Shown one piece after another: positions 2,593 through 20,676 of a DNA stretch of 64,000 bases (position 1 is its first letter; each line of letters begins with the position of its first letter). The notes beneath the pieces were generated by a model that did not search any database, was not told where the DNA came from, and saw nothing but the letters and a program-made list of their open reading frames with translations. The stretch spans positions 511,490-575,489 of the forward strand of contig NZ_JADPQH010000002.1 in assembly GCF_019173455.1 (NCBI RefSeq), in the 5' to 3' direction. Source of the stretch: Nesterenkonia sp. Act20 (GTDB lineage: Bacteria > Actinomycetota > Actinomycetes > Actinomycetales > Micrococcaceae). Both the position numbers and the translations under genes were made by a program.

Positions 2593-3249
2593 TCAACTCC
2601 GGCGGCGGGTGAGGATCAGGTGCATGACACCTTGAGGAGAGGGCGTGGCGGCGATCTCGAAGCGCTCCTCCAGCCCGCCGAGCCCCTCCCAGAGCCGCTC
2701 TCCCCGGCCCAGGAGGATCGGGACCAGGACGATGTGCAGGTGATCGATCAGATCGGCCTCGAGGAACTCCCGGATGATCGTGGCACCGCCCCCAATGCGC
2801 ACATCGAGGCCCCAAGCCAAAGCCCGCGCCCGTTCGAGCGCGGCAGCTGGATCCGCATCGAGGAAGTGGAAGGTCGTGCCGCCCTGCATCTCGAGCACCG
2901 GCCGCGGGAAGTGGGTCAACACCACCACCGGAGTGTGGAAGGGAGGCTCGGCACCCCACCATCCCTGCCACTCCTCGTCCGGCCAGGGGCCACGCTGGGG
3001 CCCGAATTTATTGCGCCCCATGATCTCCGCGCCGATTCCGGCCGCCCATTGGCTGGCGAAGGCATCATCTACACCGAAGGATCCCTCCGTCTCACCGTGG
3101 AAGCCCATCTCGCGGAACGTGCGGGTCTCGAAGGTCCACTCCATGAGGCGCTGACCTGCATGGCCGAAGGGAGCCTCGAGCGTCTGGCCCTCACCGGTGC
3201 CGAAGCCGTCGAGGGAGACCGAGAAGTTGTGGACGCGGACCAGAGACAT
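2593..3249 (-). CDS. Dihydrofolate reductase-family protein (RibD C-terminal type)
   Basis: 218 residues with a good ribosome site (GGGAGAA) just upstream of the ATG at 3249. The N-terminus VHNFSVSLDGFGTG, the central IMGRNKFGP and VVVLTHFPRP, and the C-terminal IGGGATIIREFL and IVLVPILLGRGERLW match the RibD_C/DHFR-like reductase family often called YyaP/YwjB. Members bind NADPH, but most have no proven substrate, so folate reduction should not be assumed. It lies alone between an F420-type reductase and lhr and is transcribed toward the former. Confidence 0.88.
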   Translation of the reverse strand: MSLVRVHNFSVSLDGFGTGEGQTLEAPFGHAGQRLMEWTFETRTFREMGFHGETEGSFGVDDAFASQWAAGIGAEIMGRNKFGPQRGPWPDEEWQGWWGAEPPFHTPVVVLTHFPRPVLEMQGGTTFHFLDADPAAALERARALAWGLDVRIGGGATIIREFLEADLIDHLHIVLVPILLGRGERLWEGLGGLEERFEIAATPSPQGVMHLILTRRRS

Positions 3250-10865: not shown

Positions 10866-12551
10866 TTGACTGAAAAGTCCCAGGACGAGTCCATCGAGAC
10901 GATGCCTGTCTCCGAGACCTCTGCCGAGGAAGCCGAGGCCCCTCATGCCTCCACTGAGGATGGGCCTGCGGAGACGGGTACTGACCAGGACACCCCCACC
11001 GGCGATTCCCCCGCCGAAGAGGACACCGCGCAGGACGACACCGTCGAGCCTGCCGCAGACACCAGCGACACCGAAGATGCGGCCAGCGGTCAGGACCGCG
11101 AGCCCGCAGCCGGCCATCAGGACGACCAGGCTCCGGTTCCCCCCGCAGTCCGACCAAGCCGGCCCACTCCGGCACGGCCGGCAGCCGAGACCGGTCAGGA
11201 CCAGTCGGGGCTCAGCGGCTTCTTCGACAATCTTGACGAGAAGTTCTTCGCTGCTGCCCGCCGCGTGGGAGACGCCTTCCGGCGTCCGGAGCCCACAGGG
11301 GAGGCTGAAAGCGCCACCTCTGGGGAGACGACCCAGGAGGACAGGAGCGCCGCCGCACCGGACCATGCCGCTGTGGAAGGGCCCGTCGAGGACCCCGAAC
11401 GTCGGTTCGCCGAACAGCCGGGCAGCTTTTCGACCCCTCCTGCGGAGGACGCCGCCGTCGAAGGTCCGCTCACTGAATCCCAGACAGAGCACGAGCCTGC
11501 CCCCGTGACCCTCCCCAAGCCGCGCCGCGCGCTGGATGAGCGGCGCCAGCGCGACGTGATTCTGGAGAAGGCGGCTGCTATCGAGGCAGCCACTGCGCGG
11601 AACTACCGGCCCACCGGACGCGAGTTCGTAGAGTTCGCCGATGACGAGGAAGACCTCTTCACCTACATTCCCCCGTATAATCTCCCCTCGCGCGACCCCG
11701 ACCCGGCACCGGTGCGCACCGACCTCTATCGACAGGTGTTTGTGAGCATCGGCGCTTTGGCTGCGCTGATCTCGCTCGGCTGGATGTTCGGCATGTTCAC
11801 CTCAGCACCTGCCATCCTGGGCGGGAACGGGCTGGATGAGCTCGCCGAAGGCTGGTACTCCGGGAACCGGGCGCTGCTCTCCCCCGAGGCGAACTTCTAC
11901 TGGCTCTGGCCGTTCATCGTGATCGGAATCCTCGCCCACGCGGTCTATCAGTGGACCACCACGCAGACCGCCACGCCGCGTCAGCGGCGTTCCGGCTGGC
12001 AGGTCGGCTCCGCTTCCCTGCTCATGCTCATCTGGACAGCGTCGATCCACACCGGGATGCTCACCCTCGCGGTGTTGGCGGCACTGGCTGCGGCACTGGC
12101 GCTGATCGACGCCATCCGGCAGTTCACCTTCCGCACGGCGCGCAACTCGCTCGAGCGCCGCCTGGCTGACACCACCACGGGTCTCTTCGCAGGTTGGGCG
12201 CTCGTGGCCGCAATGTCCTCATTGTCGATCTGGCTCACCGCCATGGGGTGGCACATCCCCGGCTTCCCTGCAGTGATCTGGGCGCTGATCGGACTGGGAA
12301 TCTGCATCTGGGCGGCTTCGTACTACGCGATGACCGAACGCGGCAGAATCACGCTTGCCCTCGGAATGGGCTGGGGAATGTTCTGGCTCATCTTCCCGCG
12401 CATCCTCTCCGACGTCACCTCCGTGTGGGTGGCGCTGTGCGCCGCGATGGGCGCGTTCGTCGTCATCCTCGCCACGGAATCGCGCAGGCACAAGATCAAC
12501 CACGCGGAACGTCGCGCCGCGATGGGACGGCCTCTCGAAGACATCATCTGA
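10866..12551 (+). CDS. Polytopic membrane protein with long disordered acidic N-terminus
   Basis: 561 residues from a TTG start, supported by AGGGGGAA at 10851-10858, seven bases upstream. The first ~240 residues are Glu/Asp/Thr/Pro-rich and low in complexity, apart from a short amphipathic patch SGLSGFFDNLDEKFFAAARRVG around residues 115-140. The C-terminal ~270 residues contain about eight hydrophobic segments beginning at VFVSIGALAALISLGWMFG, separated by short basic loops, and the last 25 residues are basic. I do not recognise the family or a catalytic motif. It resembles actinobacterial membrane proteins of unknown role with a cytosolic tail, possibly a scaffold. It is followed by a lipoprotein gene. 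Confidence 0.75.
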   Translation: MTEKSQDESIETMPVSETSAEEAEAPHASTEDGPAETGTDQDTPTGDSPAEEDTAQDDTVEPAADTSDTEDAASGQDREPAAGHQDDQAPVPPAVRPSRPTPARPAAETGQDQSGLSGFFDNLDEKFFAAARRVGDAFRRPEPTGEAESATSGETTQEDRSAAAPDHAAVEGPVEDPERRFAEQPGSFSTPPAEDAAVEGPLTESQTEHEPAPVTLPKPRRALDERRQRDVILEKAAAIEAATARNYRPTGREFVEFADDEEDLFTYIPPYNLPSRDPDPAPVRTDLYRQVFVSIGALAALISLGWMFGMFTSAPAILGGNGLDELAEGWYSGNRALLSPEANFYWLWPFIVIGILAHAVYQWTTTQTATPRQRRSGWQVGSASLLMLIWTASIHTGMLTLAVLAALAAALALIDAIRQFTFRTARNSLERRLADTTTGLFAGWALVAAMSSLSIWLTAMGWHIPGFPAVIWALIGLGICIWAASYYAMTERGRITLALGMGWGMFWLIFPRILSDVTSVWVALCAAMGAFVVILATESRRHKINHAERRAAMGRPLEDII

Positions 12552-12571
12552 TCCACTGCTGAGGAGCTCTT

Positions 12572-13291
12572 ATCACGCATCGTCTGACCGTCGCCGCAAG
12601 CACCGCCGCGCTGCTGCTGCTCTCCAGCTGCGGAGCCGACCAGGAGCCGGGCGACGACCCGGAGACTGCCACCGCTTCAGCCAGTCCCTCAGCCACCGCT
12701 TCAGCCAGTCCCTCAGCGAACTCTTCCGCCAGCGCCTCCGCGGAAGAAGAGCCAGGTGGTGCCTCAAGCACCGAGGGCGAACAGCCTTCTTCCGACGGCT
12801 CCGATCAGGCGGGCACAGACCCGATCACAGGGGAGTTCACCACCGAGCCGCAAGAGACTGAGGGGTTTCCGGACAGCTCTGGCTCTCGCGACCAGCAGCT
12901 GGTCGCCGTACGCTCCGGCATGCATGACGGCTTCGACCGGGTCGTCTTTGAATTCAGCGGCGAGAGCCTGCCCAGCTGGCGCGCCGAGTACGTCGATTCA
13001 GCGGCTGAGCTTGGCCGCGGCAACCGCATCGGGATGGCGGGCGAGGCGATTCTCCAGATCCACGTCAGCGGCCCCTCATGGCTTCCCGAGGAGGAGGTCG
13101 AGGATCAGCTCGCCTCTGATCAGTACTACGAGCGCGATACCGCTGCCCTCCCGGAAGAGGTCTACGTGCAGGGCCCCTTCGAAGCCCTCTCGCAGTACCT
13201 GATCGGCCTGCCCGCGGAGGTCCCCTTCTCGGTGGAGCTGCTCGAGGACCCCACCCGGCTCGTGGTGGACCTCGAGAATCGCGGCGAGTGA
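12572..13291 (+). CDS. AMIN-like domain lipoprotein with an ATC start codon
   Basis: The frame has no ATG, GTG or TTG before codon 117, yet the upstream part encodes a perfect lipoprotein leader. GAGGAG at 12561-12566 is followed five bases later by ATC, which I take as the start. The product begins MTHRLTVAASTAALLLLSSC, with the lipobox LSSC at residues 17-20, and has 239 residues. A Ser/Ala/Glu-rich linker (about 25-90) leads to a C-terminal AMIN-like domain: FDRVVFEFSG, then VYVQGPFEALSQYL and a final TRLVVDLENR. AMIN-like domains bind cell-wall glycans or localise envelope proteins. The predicted site is the outer face of the membrane. Starting at the internal ATG (12920) would cut off the lipobox and part of the domain. 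Confidence 0.82.
   Translation: MTHRLTVAASTAALLLLSSCGADQEPGDDPETATASASPSATASASPSANSSASASAEEEPGGASSTEGEQPSSDGSDQAGTDPITGEFTTEPQETEGFPDSSGSRDQQLVAVRSGMHDGFDRVVFEFSGESLPSWRAEYVDSAAELGRGNRIGMAGEAILQIHVSGPSWLPEEEVEDQLASDQYYERDTAALPEEVYVQGPFEALSQYLIGLPAEVPFSVELLEDPTRLVVDLENRGE
12668..12715 (+). repeat. Tandem 24-bp direct repeat in the lipoprotein linker
   Basis: Two identical 24-bp units (12668-12691 and 12692-12715) sit head to tail and encode ATASASPS twice. They lie in the disordered linker between lipobox and domain, so copy number can vary without breaking the fold. Confidence 0.85.
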
Positions 13292-13334
13292 CGCTGGAGA
13301 AACGGCGTCGTCAGTTGTGGTGCATGATGGAACT

Positions 13335-13874
13335 ATGAGCATTCGAACCCCTGATCCGAACCCCGGATGGTTGAACGAGGATGACCTCTACGAGGCCCGC
13401 CGCCGGCTCCCCATGGTCTATGTGGAAGCCATCCCGGTGCGGCTGGACCCGCTGGGCTGCATCACTGAACTTGGCCTGCTCTACACGGCCGACACCGAGG
13501 GGCACTTCTACCGGACTGTGGTCTCCGGGCGGGTGATGTATCGCGAAACGATTCGCGCCGCCCTGCTGCGCAACATCGAGAAGGACCTCGGCTCGCTGGT
13601 GCTGCCGCAGATTCCGCCCTCGCCCACCCCGTTCACCGTGGCCGAGTATTTTCCCTACCCCTCCGAGACAGGACTCGTCGACGATCGGCAGCATGCGGTC
13701 TCGATGGCCTACATCGTGCCCGTCTCCGGTGAGTGCTCCCCTCGTCAGGACGCTCTGGAGCTCAGCTGGATGACACCCGACCAGGTGCTCAGCCCCGAGG
13801 TCCAGGCGGAGTTCCTCGGCGGCCGTGAACGACTCATCCGGCAGGCCCTCGCCCACCTGGGTCACACGGGCTGA
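13335..13874 (+). CDS. NUDIX-like protein of the DUF4916 type
   Basis: About 179 residues from ATG 13335; an in-frame GTG at 13317 is upstream but begins less typically. The sequence WLNEDDLYEARRRLPMVYVEAIPVRLD and the later TVAEYFPYP, HAVSMAYIVPVSGE and LSWMTPDQVL fit the actinobacterial DUF4916 family, which has a NUDIX fold. The canonical NUDIX box GX5EX7REUXEEXGU is not recognisable; the region has GRVMYRETIRAALLRNIEKDLG, which keeps part of it. Hydrolysis of a nucleoside-diphosphate-like compound is therefore uncertain. It is monocistronic or co-transcribed with the next membrane protein. Confidence 0.75.
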   Translation: MSIRTPDPNPGWLNEDDLYEARRRLPMVYVEAIPVRLDPLGCITELGLLYTADTEGHFYRTVVSGRVMYRETIRAALLRNIEKDLGSLVLPQIPPSPTPFTVAEYFPYPSETGLVDDRQHAVSMAYIVPVSGECSPRQDALELSWMTPDQVLSPEVQAEFLGGRERLIRQALAHLGHTG

Positions 13875-13906
13875 ACCCAGGTGTCCCCGCCGGTAGAATC
13901 TAGGCA

Positions 13907-14452
13907 ATGACCACTCCAGCACCAGAGAAGACGACGCGCCGCAGGCGGCCGTCCCAACGCGACAGCGCGGGACCGAGACCAGTCCTGAGGCTGGGCTTCG
14001 CTGGGTGGATCGTGTCCTGGCTGATCCCCACGGCCGTGATGGGCGGTCTGCTCCTGGCGCTGAGTCTCATGCCGGGCCTAGACGGCGAGGGATTCCTCGC
14101 TCCGCTGATCCCGCTGATCGGCGCTGCCGCCGTCGTCGTCGGCATCCCGGGCACGCTGCTGGTCACCTGGCTCTTCCGTCATCAGCCACTACCCGCGGTG
14201 CATATCCTGGGCTACGTCGTCGTGGGTCTGCTCTATGGTCCTGTCGCGCTCGTCGTGGGCGCGGGCGGGCTGGTGCCGATGCTGATACCGCTCATCGGCT
14301 TCCCCGCCGGCATCCTGCTGGGACTCGGCCGCTGGATGGCTCAGCCGCTGACCCGGGTGGAGGGCCCCGAGGAGAAGACCGCAGCACCCGGCGTCGACCT
14401 GCCGCAGACCACCACCAAGGACCCCCAGACAAAGGAGCCTGAGCATGACTGA
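13907..14452 (+). CDS. Small polytopic membrane protein
   Basis: 181 residues with a basic N-terminus (KTTRRRRPSQR), four hydrophobic segments (about residues 33-55, 63-90, 98-120 and 122-142), and a polar C-terminal tail. No conserved motif points to a function. Its 3' end overlaps the start of pdxK by 8 bp, so the two genes are likely one transcript. That link gives no firm functional clue; a vitamin transporter would be a guess and is not supported by sequence. Confidence 0.65.
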   Translation: MTTPAPEKTTRRRRPSQRDSAGPRPVLRLGFAGWIVSWLIPTAVMGGLLLALSLMPGLDGEGFLAPLIPLIGAAAVVVGIPGTLLVTWLFRHQPLPAVHILGYVVVGLLYGPVALVVGAGGLVPMLIPLIGFPAGILLGLGRWMAQPLTRVEGPEEKTAAPGVDLPQTTTKDPQTKEPEHD

Positions 14453-15269
14453 GACCACTGCACATCCGGCAATGACTCTGACCATTGCAGGCTCCGAGGC
14501 CACGGGCGGCGCCGGAGCTCAGGCCGATCTGAAGACCTTCCAGGAACTGGGAACCTTCGGAATGGTGGCGCTGACCTGCATCGTGTCTTTCAATCCTGAG
14601 GACAACTGGAACCATCGGTTCGTCCCCGTGGAGACCCAGGTGATCGCTGACCAGCTCGGGGCCATCTTCGGCAACTACGGACCCGAGTCGCTCGACGCGG
14701 TCAAGCTCGGGATGATGGGCTCGCCCGCCACCATCTCCACCGTGGCAACCGCGGTCTCAGCTCGCAGCCCGAAGCACCTGGTGCTGGACCCGGTGTTGAT
14801 CTGCAAGGGTCAGGAGCCAGGCCATGCACAGGACACCGACAATGCGCTGAAGGCGGAGCTGCTGCCCCTGGCGACATTCGTGACGCCGAATCATTTCGAG
14901 ACCGAGCAGCTCTCCGGCATGAAGGTCGAGACGCTGGAGGACCTGCAGGCCGCCGCTGCCGAGATTCATCGCATCTCGGGCGCCGCCGTGCTCGCCAAGG
15001 GCGGGATTCGCCTGGCGGGAACAGACGCGGTCGACGTCTTCGTCGATGCCGAGGGCATGGAGGTGCTCACCGCCCCGAAGATCGGCGAGCACGCCGTCTC
15101 CGGAGCGGGCTGCACCCTCGCCGCCGCCGTCACGTCCGAGCTCGCCAAGGGCGCCTCTCCCCTGGACGCAGCACGGAGCGCCAAGGCGTTCGTCACCGCG
15201 GGCATCCACCAGCGCGTGGCCGGAAACACCTCGTTCGACGCACTCTGGCAGGGTGGCCTGCGCCGCTGA
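14445..15269 (+). CDS. pdxK: Pyridoxine/pyridoxal kinase of the ThiD-like, two-cysteine type
   Basis: 274 residues, ribokinase fold. N-terminal TIAGSEATGGAGAQADLKTF is the substrate/Mg region shared by ThiD and Gram-positive PdxK. Two features favour PdxK: DPVLICKGQE in the middle, with a cysteine in the lid segment, and SGAGCTLAAAV near the C-terminus, where Cys replaces the catalytic Asp of ThiD (GAGD). This two-cysteine lid is described for the S. aureus-type pyridoxal kinase. It should phosphorylate B6 vitamers and perhaps also hydroxymethylpyrimidine. A B6 kinase suits the PLP-dependent GcvP encoded nearby. It is convergent with the response regulator gene. Confidence 0.85.
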   Translation: MTETTAHPAMTLTIAGSEATGGAGAQADLKTFQELGTFGMVALTCIVSFNPEDNWNHRFVPVETQVIADQLGAIFGNYGPESLDAVKLGMMGSPATISTVATAVSARSPKHLVLDPVLICKGQEPGHAQDTDNALKAELLPLATFVTPNHFETEQLSGMKVETLEDLQAAAAEIHRISGAAVLAKGGIRLAGTDAVDVFVDAEGMEVLTAPKIGEHAVSGAGCTLAAAVTSELAKGASPLDAARSAKAFVTAGIHQRVAGNTSFDALWQGGLRR

Positions 15270-15314
15270 GCTGCGGCGGCTGGCCGTGGCCAGTCATCGC
15301 GATTGTGCCACTGG

Positions 15315-16010
15315 CTACGCGCCGTCACCCTCCGGGGCGACGTCCTCGAGCTGAGGCTCGATCAGACCCAGCTGGGTCGCGCGAATCAGCAGCTGCACGC
15401 GATCGCGCACTCCAAATCGGGCACACAGGCGCCCGAGATGCGCCTTGACCGCGCCTTCGGTCAGCACCATGCGCGTGGCGATCTCCCTGTTGCTGAAACC
15501 GCGCGCCAACAGGGTCAGAACTTCTGTCTCCCGCGGCGGCACCCGCGGCAGATAGTCCGAGCCCGCAAGTGCTACCGAGAATTCCTCGGCCTCATTGACG
15601 GCATTGAACTCTAGACGTCGCGCCACATCAGGAGAGATCGGCACAGAACTCCCGTGAACCTGACGGATGGCCTCGAGCACCTGATCTGCCGTCGCGTCCT
15701 TCACGATGTAGCCCTTGGCGCCTGCGTTCAACGCCTGCAGCGCATGCCCTTCAGAGCTGAACGTGGTGACCGCCAGCACGGAGGTCTCCGGGGCGATTGC
15801 CATGACCTCGGCGGTGGCCTCGACGCCTCCCATCTTTGGCATCTTGAGGTCCATAATCACCACGTCGGGCTTCTCCTCGCGCACCCGCTCGATGACTTCG
15901 AGTCCGTTCTGGGCTTCACCCACGCAGACCATGTCTGGGGCGGAATCCACATAGGCACGAAGCGCTGCCCGCATGATCGGGTGGTCGTCTGCAACGACAA
16001 GACGGAGCAT
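15315..16010 (-). CDS. NarL/FixJ-type response regulator
   Basis: 231 residues. The receiver domain is complete: acidic pair DD (8-9), phospho-acceptor Asp54 in VIMDLKMPKMGG, Thr82/83, and Lys104 in GYIVKD. A linker leads to a LuxR-type helix-turn-helix with RETEVLTLLARGFSNREIATRM and AVKAHLGRLCARF. It is the obvious partner of the histidine kinase encoded in the opposite direction 0.4 kb away. The AT-rich intergenic region probably holds its binding sites and a small peptide gene. A short C-terminal tail (EPQLEDVAPEGDGA) follows the DNA-binding domain. Confidence 0.93.
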   Translation of the reverse strand: MLRLVVADDHPIMRAALRAYVDSAPDMVCVGEAQNGLEVIERVREEKPDVVIMDLKMPKMGGVEATAEVMAIAPETSVLAVTTFSSEGHALQALNAGAKGYIVKDATADQVLEAIRQVHGSSVPISPDVARRLEFNAVNEAEEFSVALAGSDYLPRVPPRETEVLTLLARGFSNREIATRMVLTEGAVKAHLGRLCARFGVRDRVQLLIRATQLGLIEPQLEDVAPEGDGA

Positions 16011-16039
16011 GGCTGAACCTGTTCTTCCTCGGCCTGTGA

Positions 16040-16062
16040 CACCGGTTCATTGACACCCGGTG
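16040..16062. promoter_or_regulatory. Inverted repeat between response regulator and peptide/kinase genes
   Basis: CACCGG (16040-16045) and CCGGTG (16057-16062) form an inverted repeat 30 bp from the response regulator start. A TTGACA hexamer (16050-16055) lies inside it. A second repeat, CCGGT-TTAAT-ACCGG, is at 16119-16133. Both share the CCGGT core and could be binding sites for the response regulator. Confidence 0.4.
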
Positions 16063-16118
16063 CGAAGTCTCACTTTATCCGAACTCTGCCGGCCACAGGA
16101 GTGCCCCGAGTCGTCTGA

Positions 16119-16133
16119 CCGGTTTAATACCGG
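16119..16133. promoter_or_regulatory. Second CCGGT inverted repeat
   Basis: Perfect 5-bp arms CCGGT and ACCGG around TTAAT. It shares its core with the repeat at 16040-16062 and lies in the AT-rich gap. It may be a half of a co-operative operator; this is inference from symmetry only. Confidence 0.35.
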
Positions 16134-16250
16134 ATCTGAGTGAATCTGTATAAATTAGGTACTTAAGTCCACTATACCAGAATCTAGGCACACCTTATTC
16201 TAATTTTACACGTTGTTCATCAGAAGGTATAGGCCTGAAAGGCACAAAAA

Positions 16251-16403
16251 ATGTCACTCGCATTGTTTGCTTACCGCATCGCCATCGTTTCCGCTCTTGT
16301 TCTTACTACTGTTATCACTTTCTTTGATCTTTCTAACCTCGAAGCGGCGGGTTTTTTCCGTTCCGTCATCTGCCGCGCGTTCCCCAGCGCTCAAGGATGC
16401 TGA
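16251..16403 (+). CDS. Putative secreted 50-residue peptide, possible signal for the adjacent two-component system
   Basis: An ATG with GAAAGG eight bases upstream (16237-16242) opens a 50-codon frame. Residues about 8-26 are strongly hydrophobic, like a signal or anchor helix, ending in FFDLSNLEAAG. The C-terminal 18 residues run AGFFRSVICRAFPSAQGC, so Cys41 and the terminal Cys50 could close a ten-residue loop. Codon use is mixed (CTT, GTT, ACT, TCT), unlike the G/C-ending neighbours. The gene ends 32 bp before the histidine kinase start on the same strand. I know no family for it. A secreted peptide sensed by the kinase is one reading; a spurious frame in AT-rich DNA is the alternative. 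Confidence 0.5.
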   Translation: MSLALFAYRIAIVSALVLTTVITFFDLSNLEAAGFFRSVICRAFPSAQGC

Positions 16404-16435
16404 GCCCTCGCTGAGCGGCGCGTTCCGACGTACCC

Positions 16436-17614
16436 TTGAGCGTGACGTTTTCAAGTGAAGTAGTCCCGAGCCGGCGCGTCCTGAACACCCTGACTTTGAC
16501 CGCCATCGGCGGGATCTGTGCAGACATTTCCCTCGCCCTGATATTCGCATCGGCGGACCTTGCCACAACTTTGCAGTTCGGGTATCTCATCTGGTTCCTG
16601 GCCATTGCACTCTTCTGGCTGCATCCCGCCGCGGGTGCACTTGCCACCCTGGCGGGAGCGGTCATCGGTGTCATAGCAAGCTCACAGTTCGAGACCCTTC
16701 TGCTCGTCATTCTGTTCTGTGGACTCACAGCTGTGTATTGTTCGCGATGGGTGAGGCACCTCTATCTCCTCTTGGCTCTGTGCCTCGCAGTAAATATCGG
16801 ACTGGTGCAGACCGATCCGCTGTTGGTCACCGGGTTTGCTGTGTTCGCAGGAGTCGTGATGTCGCTCTCCTACGTGGTTGGCCGTGCCACACGAAAGCAG
16901 CTGATCTCACGACTCTCGGCCGAAAGTGAGCTCGTGCGCCTGCGCGCCGCACATGAAGAGGCCCTGGCCGGTGAGCGACGCTCCATCGCGCGAGATCTGC
17001 ACGACATCCTCGCGCATGACCTCACCGTCATCTCGATGCAGACGCAGGTTGCGGCGGCCACTGGGACACCAGAGTCGCGAGCAGCGGCGCTGAACCAGAT
17101 CTCGCAATCGGCCAGTGCAGCCCTGCATGACCTTCGCCGCGTGCTGCTGGTTCTGCAGCGTGAGAACATCATCGGCTCGGGACCCGGCGACGCTCCCGAA
17201 CTGGATCTGGAATCGGGGCTTGCGCGCTTCACCGAACGCCTGCAGGACCTGGGCTTTTCCGTCGACACCTCGGTGCATGGGGATATCAGCTCGATCTCCC
17301 AATCGGTGGAGGCCTGCCTCTACCGCATTCTGCAGGAATGCACGACGAACGTGGTCAAACACGGAGCACGTGGACACGATACGAATGACTGCACCATCGA
17401 ACTCGAGGTCAAAGAGGCCACCGTCGACCTGGCCGTGACGAACAGGACCGATGCGAAACAGCCCCCCGCGCTGAAGCATGCCTCTTCGGGAACCGGGCTG
17501 ATCAGCATGGAGGATCGCGCGGCGACCTATGGCGGAACGATCCAGGCAGGCTCACCGGCCGAAGGCATCTGGAGCGTTCAGGTCTCTGGAATCCAGCTGC
17601 GGCTCCCGCGCTGA
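16436..17614 (+). CDS. NarL-system sensor histidine kinase with multi-span N-terminus
   Basis: 392 residues from TTG 16436; GTG 16442 is an equally possible start and neither has a clear ribosome site. The N-terminal ~150 residues hold five or six membrane segments with short loops and no recognised extracellular sensor domain. A HisKA_3 dimerisation region follows, with the phospho-accepting His near residue 189 in ARDLHDILAHDL. The ATPase domain has NVVKHG (N box) and SSGTGLISMEDRA (G box). It should autophosphorylate and pass phosphate to the divergently encoded response regulator. Multi-span sensors of this type often detect membrane stress or small hydrophobic ligands. Confidence 0.92.
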   Translation: MSVTFSSEVVPSRRVLNTLTLTAIGGICADISLALIFASADLATTLQFGYLIWFLAIALFWLHPAAGALATLAGAVIGVIASSQFETLLLVILFCGLTAVYCSRWVRHLYLLLALCLAVNIGLVQTDPLLVTGFAVFAGVVMSLSYVVGRATRKQLISRLSAESELVRLRAAHEEALAGERRSIARDLHDILAHDLTVISMQTQVAAATGTPESRAAALNQISQSASAALHDLRRVLLVLQRENIIGSGPGDAPELDLESGLARFTERLQDLGFSVDTSVHGDISSISQSVEACLYRILQECTTNVVKHGARGHDTNDCTIELEVKEATVDLAVTNRTDAKQPPALKHASSGTGLISMEDRAATYGGTIQAGSPAEGIWSVQVSGIQLRLPR

Positions 17615-17675
17615 GATACCCCTGCCACGCTGAAACACTCGCTGACATAGAGGAAATCACCCCAGACACAGAGAG

Positions 17676-17706
17676 GCTCGGGCGGTGCCGTTCCCACCGC
17701 CCGAGC
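17676..17706. terminator. Hairpin downstream of the histidine kinase
   Basis: A perfect 12-bp stem (17676-17687 with 17695-17706) and a 7-base loop, 60 bp after the kinase stop. No T-run follows, so it is a terminator-like hairpin or RNA-stabilising element. The rest of 17615-17908 shows no gene. Confidence 0.65.
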
Positions 17707-17917
17707 ACTAACACCAGCCGAGGCTCTGCTCCGAACCCTTGCACCGTAATTCGGAGCGCCTCAAGGCCAATGCTTCTCCCTGAATCGTGCACCACTGCTG
17801 CACGTCCAGTTTCTATTGTCCGGGAGGGTCCTCGGACGACACCAGTGGACTTTGGTCTACAGTTCGATGAATCAACTAAGCTCCAACACCTTGTGACTAT
17901 CGAGTAACATGTGTGCC

Positions 17918-19159
17918 ATGACACATCACGCCCCCGACGCCTCCGTGGACCCCATCTACGAGGTCTCGACAGCACTGGATCTGGATTACTACGGCGTGTT
18001 CGAGGACCTGCCCGCGGCGGACCGCCAGTGGTGGACGCGCGCCCGCGAGTTCTCCAGCGGTTTGGAGACCCGGATGGCCCAGCACTGGGAGCATGCGGAG
18101 TACCCGGTGGACCTGGTCCGCAAGGCCGGAGGCCTCGGACTGCTCACCGACGGGGTCGACGTCACCGACGCCGGCATGGAGACCCTCTCCCCCATGGCCG
18201 CGGGACTGGTGAACATGGAGACCTCACGGGCAGACGGCTCCCTGGGGACGGCCCTGGCGGTCCAGGGCGGACTGGCGCTGCGCACGCTGGCCTACTTCGG
18301 ATCAGACGATCAGAAGGCCGAGCATCTCACTGCGTTGGCCACCGCCGAGACCCTGGGGTCCTTCGCCCTGACCGAACCGACCCATGGTTCCGATTCAGTC
18401 TCCCTGGAGACCACCGCCCGGCTGGTCGGTGACGAGGACTCCGGCTACTACGTGATCAACGGTGCCAAGAAGTGGATCGGCAACGGGGCCTCCGGAGGCA
18501 TCACCTTCACCTGGGCCCGGGTCTCCGGGGGCATCCATGACGGAAGCGTCCGATGCTTCCTGGTGGACCAGGCCACACGCGGCTATAAGGCCGAAGTCAT
18601 CCAGGGCAAGGCCTCGCTGCGCGCGATCCACCAGGCATTGATCCAGTACGAAGACGTCGAGGTTCCCGCCCACGCGGTGCTTCCCGGGTCGAAGAACTTC
18701 AAGGACGCTTCCAAAGTGCTCTTCGCGACCAGGCTGGGAGTGGCATGGTCCGCCGTCGGCCACGCCTCGGCCCTGGTGGAGGCGGCGCTGAGCTACTCCA
18801 AGCAGCGCGAGCAGTTCAGCCGCCCACTGGCCAGCTTCCAGCTTGTCCAGGAGCGCCTGACCTGGATGGTCTCGGAGCTGACCTCCATGCAGATGCATGT
18901 GCGGCAGGTGACCGAACGCGATATCGCCGGCACCCTCACCGGCCCACAGGCTTCGCTGGCGAAATATCACAACACTCGCAAGGCCCGGGCGATCGCCCAG
19001 GTGGCTCGCGACATGCTCGGCGGCAACGGCATCCTGCTCAAGAACAAGGTGCCCCGCCACATGGCCGACATCGAGGCGATCCACACCTACGAGGGCACCG
19101 AGTCGGTGCAGACCCTGATCATCGGTCGGGACCTGACCGGCTACTCCGCCTTCGCCTGA
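17918..19159 (+). CDS. Acyl-CoA dehydrogenase, glutaryl-CoA dehydrogenase-like
   Basis: 413 residues from ATG 17918; an in-frame ATG at 17909 adds three residues. FAD/substrate motifs are FALTEPTHGSDS in the middle, NGAKKWIGNGASGG just after it, and REQFSRPLASFQLVQERL in the helical domain. The base Glu392 is visible in the C-terminal IHTYEGTESVQ, the position used by glutaryl-CoA dehydrogenase and short-chain acyl-CoA dehydrogenases. It oxidises an acyl-CoA with FAD and passes electrons to ETF. The exact chain is uncertain; the sequence is most like the glutaryl-CoA type. It is convergent with sdaA and has its own promoter. Confidence 0.88.
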   Translation: MTHHAPDASVDPIYEVSTALDLDYYGVFEDLPAADRQWWTRAREFSSGLETRMAQHWEHAEYPVDLVRKAGGLGLLTDGVDVTDAGMETLSPMAAGLVNMETSRADGSLGTALAVQGGLALRTLAYFGSDDQKAEHLTALATAETLGSFALTEPTHGSDSVSLETTARLVGDEDSGYYVINGAKKWIGNGASGGITFTWARVSGGIHDGSVRCFLVDQATRGYKAEVIQGKASLRAIHQALIQYEDVEVPAHAVLPGSKNFKDASKVLFATRLGVAWSAVGHASALVEAALSYSKQREQFSRPLASFQLVQERLTWMVSELTSMQMHVRQVTERDIAGTLTGPQASLAKYHNTRKARAIAQVARDMLGGNGILLKNKVPRHMADIEAIHTYEGTESVQTLIIGRDLTGYSAFA

Positions 19160-19215
19160 ACAGGAAGGACGACGCCGGATCCCACGACTTCGGCCTCGGA
19201 CAGCTCACCAGCCGT

Positions 19216-20676
19216 TCAGCATTCGACGACGTTGACCGCGAGCCCGCCCAGTGCGGTCTCCTTGTACTTCGAAGACATGTCCTTGCCGGTCTCGCGCATG
19301 GTCACGATGACCTCATCCAGGGACACCCGGTGGTCACCGTCGCCCATCAGCGCCATCCGTGCGGCGTTGACCGCTTTGGTCGCTCCCATGGCATTGCGCT
19401 CGATGCATGGCACCTGCACCAGTCCCGCGATCGGGTCGCAGGTCAGGCCGAGGTTGTGCTCCATGGCGATCTCGGCAGCGTTCTCCACCTGCCGCGGGGT
19501 GCCGCCGAGGACCTCGCAGAGTCCCGCGGCCGCCATCGAGGAGGCCGAGCCGACCTCCCCCTGACAGCCCACCTCGGCGCCCGAGATCGAGGCCTGCTCC
19601 TTATAGAGCACCCCTACGGCGGCAGCGGTGAGCAGGTACCGCACGGCGATGTCCTCGCGGTCCTCCTCCCCCGCGTAGCTGGCCCCGGGGCCGTAGTGTG
19701 TGGCGTAGAAGCCCACGGCGGGGATGATGCCGGCGGCTCCGTTGGTGGGTGCGGTGACGACCCGTCCCCCAGAGGCGTTCTCCTCATTGACCGCGAGTGC
19801 GACCAGGTTCACCCATTCCTGCCAGTAGGCGTGGGTGCGGCTCGGATCGTCCTTCCACATGCGGGCATGCCAGTCAGGCGCACGTCGGCGCACCTTGAGT
19901 CCACCAGGCAGGTTTCCCTCACGCTCCAGGGCGAAGTTCTTGCAGTCCTCCATCACCTGCCAGAGATGGAGCACCTTCGCGGTGATCTCCTGCTCCGCGT
20001 CCTGCTCCGTCCCTCCGTGACGGGCGACGTGCAGCGCGCGCTCATTGGCCATCATCACTCGCGAGACTGGCAGACCCGAGCGTGCACAGTGCTCCATGAG
20101 CTCGGCGCCCGTGTTGAAGGGGTAGGGCACCTCTGCGTCGTCGTTGGCCAGCGCCTCGCCGAGGGAGGCATCAGAGGCCACCGCATCGGATTCCGAGAGC
20201 ACGAAGCCGCCGCCGATGGAGTAATAGGTCTCTTTCACCACCTGCTCGCCCTGGGCATCCAGTGCCGTCAGCGTCATGGCATTGGTGTGCCGGTCCAGGA
20301 CGGTCAACGGACGCTGCACGATGTCCTCGACTCGCAGCGGAAGCTCGCGTCCGCCGTCGTCGTCGTGCTGGGCCGCGAGCTGGACTGTCCCGGAGGACTC
20401 CATCGCCGCCAACCGGGACTCCACCTGGTCCGGAAGAATCGTCTCGGGGTCCCAGGCTTCGAGCCCGAGCAGCACTGCGGTGAACGTGCCATGCCCGCGA
20501 CCGGTGGCCGAGAGCGAGCCGTAGAGATCGACCCGCAGCGCCTCCGTGCGCGCCAGGGCGCCGGTGTCACACAGCTCCTCGATGACGAACCGCCGCGCGG
20601 CGCGCATCGGACCCACGGTGTGCGAGGAGGAGGGGCCGATCCCCACGCGCAGGAGGTCGAAGATGCTGATGGTCAT
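19216..20676 (-). CDS. sdaA: L-serine ammonia-lyase, iron-sulfur type
   Basis: 486 residues, the single-chain form. The N-terminus [20 protein letters not shown] is the family signature. Cysteines expected for the 4Fe-4S cluster appear in [18 protein letters not shown] and VQVPCIERN. The enzyme converts L-serine to pyruvate and ammonia. It is the last gene of a gcvP-gcvT-sdaA operon, 27 bp after gcvT. This suits a route in which glycine is cleaved, the methylene group makes serine from a second glycine, and serine becomes pyruvate. Glycine-riboswitch control upstream of gcvP likely covers this gene too. Confidence 0.95.

Follow-up and report, generated by a model that had tools for sequence, protein, structure and literature searches.

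The locus and its control DNA

The window, by which we mean the whole 64 kb stretch of DNA that was analysed, is part of contig 2 of a genome of 2.93 Mb. It carries the genes of a NarL-type response regulator and of a sensor histidine kinase, and in the interval between them lies a short open reading frame (Table 1). The original prediction had described here an unannotated frame of 50 residues with a ribosome site before it, a divergent regulator on its other side and a Cys-(8)-Cys ending, and each of these elements was recovered. The start codon and the stop position of the frame are conserved in all nine orthologues that we collected, the ribosome binding site keeps its core (GAAAGG or GGAAGG) in eight of them, and the peptide closes with C41-x8-C50, where both Cys are invariant and the chain terminates at the second. 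A filter for a hydrophobic leader followed by a C-terminal Cys-loop returned this ORF as its sole match in the 64 kb, and the peptide matched no Pfam, NCBIfam or PADLOC model at the thresholds that we applied. On this comparative evidence we regard the 50-residue ORF as a genuine gene.

Table 1. Features of the peptide locus, with positions counted from the first base of the window.
Feature	Position	Strand	Evidence or remark
NarL-type response regulator, divergent from the peptide ORF	15315..16010	-	Response_reg 1.2e-26, GerE 9.2e-13 (Pfam)
Conserved AT-rich block between the divergent genes, probable promoter/operator	16150..16213	.	identity, GC
Ribosome binding site GAAAGG	16237..16242	+	8 nt 5' of the ATG; read from sequence
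Precursor peptide ORF, 50 aa, ATG start	16251..16403	+	ORF list, orthologues, pN/pS
Predicted export leader, residues 1-34 (signal peptide or signal anchor)	16251..16352	+	hydrophobicity, -3/-1 rule
Predicted mature 16-mer FFRSVICRAFPSAQGC, putative Cys41-Cys50 ring	16353..16400	+	invariant residues, sensor co-divergence
Sensor histidine kinase, HisKA_3 4.4e-15 (Pfam)	16442..17614	+	GTG start; alternative TTG 16436
Kinase membrane sensor, about six helices, approximate bounds	16472..16910	+	AlphaFold2

The gap to the kinase had been given as 32 bp, which is correct if the kinase starts at the TTG. A gap of 38 bp is more likely, because the GTG is kept in 9/9 orthologous loci and the TTG in 7/9. 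The predicted multi-span character of the kinase agrees with its AlphaFold2 model, which is of moderate confidence (mean pLDDT 70.7) and has helices at residues 13-37, 40-62, 64-80, 84-101, 104-125 and from 128 on, the sixth continuing into a long signalling helix. Pfam assigned five of the seven neighbouring genes, to a phosphomethylpyrimidine kinase, an acyl-CoA dehydrogenase, a serine dehydratase, a DUF4916 protein and an AMIN-like protein, and left two unmatched.

The intergenic DNA is indeed AT-rich, as had been noted: the GC content, 0.667 for the whole window, drops to 0.475 at 16011-16250 and to 0.328 at 16150-16213. The latter block is the best conserved part of the region, with a mean pairwise identity of 0.83 and 37 of 64 columns invariant across the nine loci, compared with 0.70 for the peptide ORF itself, and it is likely to be the shared promoter-operator of both genes. 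The CCGGT inverted repeats had also been taken as a sign of a regulated locus. These words are certainly dense (six overlapping CCGGT/ACCGG words, a count reached in 1.6% of tiles), but we rejected them as the operator, since the stretch that holds them lacks conservation (mean pairwise identity 0.48). A scan of the DNA for promoters and terminators found none.

Using two patterns taken from the left half of the block (its right half is GCCTRAATCTAGGC) and allowing up to 3 mismatches, we could not find a convincing second target in the nine genomes. The first pattern gave 19 matches beyond the nine own loci, against 56 for the reversed-pattern control, and the second gave 21 against 25. The nearest match is a half-block with one mismatch at G000 C1:1765544 (L162, about 2700-3050), which precedes a small gene, itself upstream of another ORF that, we assume, resembles a RES-type toxin. 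A further observation concerns a gene for a VWA/LPXTG-like surface protein (L164 256-5999, L165 and L160, from genomes G000, G026 and G023; 915 aa in G000), which follows the gene of a large LuxR-type HTH protein and has near full-length copies in three of the nine genomes. It is preceded by ACCTGG/ACCAGG inverted repeats and by an AATTGGC-ACTTT word that resembles the conserved block; at a distant homologue in the peptide-less genome G002 no clear block match was seen by eye, and the shorter word TTTAGTCC is present. We consider this gene, on its upstream sequence, a weak lead to a regulon target.

Selection on the peptide and co-divergence with the kinase sensor

Among 30 Nesterenkonia genomes, nine, including that of the window, contain the kinase at 73-100% identity, and the best kinase match in the remaining 21 reaches only 29-39%. 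N. sandarakina and N. aurantiaca are among the culturable species that have the locus. The original prediction had named in advance two observations on which it could be judged, conservation of the frame beside the same kinase-regulator pair and a ratio of non-synonymous to synonymous change away from 1. The frame was found at the same place in 9/9 genomes carrying that kinase, and pN/pS was 0.07-0.62, staying below 1 in 36/36 orthologue pairs. Codon position 3 is the most variable and position 2 the least, and 15 residues are invariant, including F35, C41, A43, F44, P45 and C50. These sequence comparisons indicate that the peptide is under purifying selection. A profile of the nine peptides, run against 395 genomes of the family, recovered those same nine (E up to 2.6e-26) with no strong match beyond them. 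Twelve further genomes outside the genus gave weak matches only (E 0.008-0.1), and the best of these, at L040, was inspected and judged to be chance.

The constraint bears on whether the encoded amino acids matter at all. Lying 32-38 bp upstream of the kinase, the ORF could be a translated leader, that is an attenuator or a translational-coupling ORF whose amino acids are inactive outside the cell. We give this explanation very little credence, since the amino acids are constrained while synonymous sites change fast, the tail co-diverges specifically with the sensor (below), and other genera place similar peptides downstream of the kinase-regulator genes or well upstream of the kinase.

The hydrophobic leader of the original prediction is a feature of the whole group, as the best hydrophobic 19-mer scores 1.84-2.22 across the nine orthologues. 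It has just one charged residue (R9, or Q9 in two relatives) before the hydrophobic stretch, a point against the reading as an exported signal. All nine peptides agree with the -3/-1 signal-peptidase rule at one internal column only, after residue 34, with A/T/S/V at -3, G/S at -1 and an invariant F at +1. With cleavage at this shared column the predicted mature part would have 16 residues, which corrects the tail of 18 residues proposed earlier, and it ends in C-[RA]-A-F-P-x4-C in the nine orthologues. The AlphaFold2 model of the peptide (mean pLDDT 82.6) is a single helix from residue 3 to 43, running across the predicted cleavage site; this fits membrane insertion, and the model does not decide whether the tail is released.

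We then compared evolutionary distances across the nine species. Those of the predicted mature part follow those of the kinase membrane sensor (r 0.86) much more closely than those of the kinase catalytic domain (r 0.47) or of eight neighbour proteins including the regulator (r 0.13-0.61). For the leader the order is different, with r 0.84 for the regulator, 0.67 for the catalytic part and 0.56 for the sensor. The mature-sensor relation persisted as a partial correlation of 0.80 given the eight neighbours (p about 0.001) and of 0.82 given the catalytic domain (p about 0.0003, 3000 permutations), compared with 0.40 both ways for the leader (p 0.02-0.03), which thus follows the sensor as well, though to a lesser degree. 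Given the catalytic part, dropping any one species left the mature-sensor partial r at 0.76-0.87, and dropping three close relatives left it at 0.63, with a plain r of 0.59. Coming from nine related species, this co-divergence is good but not strong evidence, and it strengthens the reading of the peptide as a pheromone.

The same correlation would fit equally well a peptide that is never released. In such a case the peptide of the window would be a membrane-anchored subunit of the kinase, comparable to MgrB with PhoQ, whose Cys loop touches the sensor helices and tunes the kinase or reports redox or envelope state to it, and the single helix 3-43 of the AlphaFold2 model speaks for this too. 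Among the alternatives to an exported signal this is the main one. We nevertheless think it improbable, given the common -3/-1 site with its invariant F at +1 and the different divergence of leader and tail, and the cleavage motifs of the similar peptides described in the next section point the same way.

Ring peptides beside related kinases

A strict scan of 102 loci (1.53 Mb) required a ribosome site, a charged start with a hydrophobic leader, and a Cys-loop at the C terminus. It gave eight matches, all adjoining kinases, four of them of the window type and four others. Looser scans found further ring peptides plus some chance ORFs: at 219 loci, which are partly redundant and some of which were fetched because of a peptide, the 0.58 Mb lying no more than 1.3 kb from a kinase gave 54 matches, one of them (at L127) chance-like, and the other 1.44 Mb gave six. 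Ring peptides were found in N. cremea (at a second kinase-regulator pair), in four other Nesterenkonia genomes, in Micrococcus terreus and at four loci of Propionibacteriaceae (Propioniciclava tarda, P. sinopodophylli, P. soli and Propionibacterium sp.).

We next searched by the kinase. The query was the kinase of L218, chosen because a peptide lies beside it, and the search covered 80 Micrococcaceae genomes from other genera. A ring peptide was present beside 21/21 kinase places with E up to 5.4e-31. These places are 19 returned loci and two fetched afterwards; two of them (G077 C13 and G032 C10) were already known and the peptide at G032 C9 is the same as that of the named Micrococcus terreus record. 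Beside weaker kinase matches there was a ring peptide in none of the 14 examined (11 returned, 3 fetched). Under the same scan settings 1/59 class-search loci had a match, a chance-like ORF, L281 had one extra ORF, and 26 peptide-less Nesterenkonia loci (from two fetches, largely of the same species twice) had three, two of which are copies of a single ORF in the antisense of the regulator, while the third lies a long way from the kinase.

In a FastTree phylogeny of 122 kinases, which has several long branches, the kinases of Micrococcaceae and Propionibacteriaceae fall into two groups. The peptide label needs 6 changes on this tree compared with 33.3 when shuffled, and well-supported branches force three of them. 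Ring peptides are associated with one kinase lineage in Micrococcaceae and with another in Propionibacteriaceae; common descent of the peptides themselves is not demonstrable, because the part that they share is so short.

Two genomes were seen to hold two different ring-peptide systems each (L290 and L310 in G032; L294 and L311 in G034), and the peptide of L310 is identical to that of the named Micrococcus terreus record L085. At L027 (G017) the kinase match is in two pieces beside a well-formed ring peptide, with no regulator in the fetched stretch, and this is probably a decaying copy.

We compared sequence features in 41 of the ring peptides, a selection that leaves out L207 and L311 among others. 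The ring has 7-11 residues including both Cys, most often 8 (22/41), contains a Gly or Pro in 39/41, and in all 41 a hydrophobic residue stands within two positions before the first Cys. A typical ring is C-x2-[hydrophobic]-[G/P]-x2-C, as in DWVCRNLGALC, WFCKNYGLAC, WLCKVFGIFC, LLCKAFPRAC and WLCNLFPMFC, to be compared with ICRAFPSAQGC in the window; Trp before the first Cys is common among the other ring peptides. By a simple test, an A-x-A motif follows the leader in 26 of the 41, within residues 16-45. The motif mostly lies well before the tail (that of G012 sits in the membrane stretch), so those peptides are more likely to be cut and released, which argues further against an anchored subunit. 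At L212 and L213, both in Nesterenkonia, the leaders make poor signal peptides, a point against export. The usual gene order is regulator (reverse), peptide, kinase, and the orders regulator-peptide-kinase, kinase-regulator-peptide and peptide-kinase-regulator also occur. The partners are a HisKA_3 kinase with about six membrane helices and a NarL-type regulator. Fifteen of the peptides compared with Pfam and 11 compared with NCBIfam gave at most weak matches, none reaching a family cut-off. Annotation is likely to miss these genes, because they are short and fall below the Pfam and NCBIfam cut-offs.

A word of the conserved block of the window (16165-16173), AAGTCCACT / AGTGGACTT, recurs exactly upstream of the N. 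cremea precursor (L059 17973-17981, minus strand). Among 32 loci, N. cremea was the only one outside the window type with an exact AAGTCCACT, and we rejected it as a general operator word.

Not every kinase of this lineage has a peptide. Fourteen other Nesterenkonia genomes have a divergent pair with a short gap, the kinase at 34-39% and the regulator at about 50% identity, and no peptide was found between the two genes in 14/14. The sole scan match between the genes at those loci is an ORF in the antisense of the regulator. Kinases of this lineage can thus function with no peptide beside them, which counts against the reading as a signal. In the tree these 14 kinases nest inside the peptide-bearing group, and therefore the peptide has probably been lost in them, or gained more than once, two histories that the tree cannot separate. 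In 13/13 peptide-less pairs from named Nesterenkonia records some of the flanking genes of the window are nearby, inverted relative to the pair in 12 of them (L057, L058, L060-L068 and L076, compared with window positions 10866-20676). A resemblance of the N terminus of the peptide-less kinases (FW-x-C-R-x-L) to ring peptides was considered and dropped, the Cys being unconserved.

A proposed signalling system and its relation to known ones

The locus has the linkage of peptide gene, multi-span kinase and regulator that is general for peptide-pheromone systems, and export of its peptide is predicted. From the sequence evidence, the ORF probably encodes the precursor of a signal with a disulfide ring, which would leave the cell and act on the adjacent kinase. 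The original prediction, a secreted cyclic pheromone with its sensor, gains from the co-divergence and from the similar peptides beside kin kinases, and its export, disulfide, sensing and response parts stay at the level of inference. In the mechanism that we propose, the 64-bp block would drive a peptide-kinase mRNA in one direction and the regulator mRNA in the other. Sec would insert the precursor, signal peptidase I is predicted to cut it after residue 34, and the 16-mer would form its Cys41-Cys50 ring outside the cell. Ring and hydrophobic arm may then dock on the six-helix membrane sensor and alter the activity of the kinase, as the co-divergence suggests, and the NarL-type regulator would switch genes, probably including its own locus.

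On a wider scale we lean, with some reserve, towards an undescribed class of quorum sensing in Micrococcaceae and Propionibacteriaceae, in which Sec-exported C-terminal disulfide rings (7-11 residues with a Gly/Pro turn) would each have their own HisKA_3 kinase and form species-specific pherotypes, some genomes having two channels. We rate the system of the window as peptide-pheromone signalling through two components, in which the ligand would be of a new type and the receptors form an actinobacterial lineage; the similar peptides carried beside related kinases suggest an undescribed chemical language between cells. Among the matches listed in our literature search on such systems there was no description of this peptide family. 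Peptide signalling is poorly mapped in Actinobacteria; according to a 2016 review, quorum sensing had been reported in only 25 of 342 genera, with experimental evidence in only nine (PMC4748050). The locus offers a candidate ligand, receptor and regulator, and because all are in one small place, short synthetic peptides could address ligand, specificity and targets at the same time. The rule that near relatives of the L218-type kinase adjoin a ring peptide is also a simple route to more of them.

The two Cys and the hydrophobic character of so short a peptide could also belong to an antimicrobial, similar to a bacteriocin or a TMcin, with the two-component system controlling its production or immunity. 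TMcins are known in Actinomycetota and, like the peptide of the window, are found in Gram-positive bacteria and combine a hydrophobic membrane helix with one disulfide, according to the cited passages (PMC12328743, PMC13252029). The same passages attribute their production to a cluster whose proteins, a DsbA-like one among them, are mostly membrane proteins, whereas Pfam recognised no DsbA-like or membrane maturation gene, and no immunity gene or transporter, among our seven neighbours (two without a match). Moreover, the TMcin disulfide, as described in those parts of PMC12328743, joins Cys25 to Cys50 around a beta loop, far larger than rings of 7-11 residues. Since the peptide also lacks a Pfam, NCBIfam or PADLOC match, we hold an antimicrobial role to be quite improbable and keep to the exported signal as the likelier reading.

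MgrB has 47 residues, and its partner PhoQ belongs to another kinase type. MgrB resembles the peptide of the window in being a small protein with one membrane helix, two similarly spaced extracytoplasmic Cys and a kinase partner, and PhoQ differs from the window kinase in its periplasmic PAS-fold domain. A possible cleavage motif in 26/41 ring peptides is a further difference from MgrB, and a relation to it was not indicated by the databases, the peptide having no Pfam or NCBIfam match and its partner being a HisKA_3 kinase, not PhoQ.

Agr systems use an AgrB-type protease/exporter and a thiolactone precursor with a C-terminal recognition tail. The chain of the window differs in stopping at its second Cys, with a signal peptidase route predicted, and no AgrB-type protease/exporter or dedicated transporter was recognised among the seven neighbours (two unmatched). 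AgrBDCA and ComCDE are similar to the window in having a peptide beside a kinase with a multi-helix membrane domain. Agr and ComD differ in that their kinases are of the HPK10 type, compared with HisKA_3 (Pfam) and a NarL-type regulator here; HPK10 kinases, in the cited part of PMC4873836, sense the peptide through a membrane domain that usually has 5-8 helices.

A parallel in logic is ComQXPA of Bacillus, where a peptide gene also stands beside the genes of a kinase and a regulator (ComX, ComP, ComA). ComP and ComA are a HisKA_3-type kinase and a NarL-type regulator, as is the pair of the window, and the Trp of the mature ComX peptide is modified by ComQ. The system of the window differs from it in its Cys ring, in its divergent regulator and in having no Trp in the tail (Trp is absent from the peptide in 9/9 orthologues), and Pfam recognised no ComQ-type isoprenyl transferase among the seven neighbours (two unmatched). 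In the cited passages of PMC6334282, ComX depends on ComQ for its processing, modification and export. Conservation is poor in comQ, in comX and at the 5' end of comP, and it is the pheromone together with this end of the kinase gene that defines pherotypes. The system of the window is therefore not a member of the ComX-ComP-ComA group, and it is like that group in its logic.
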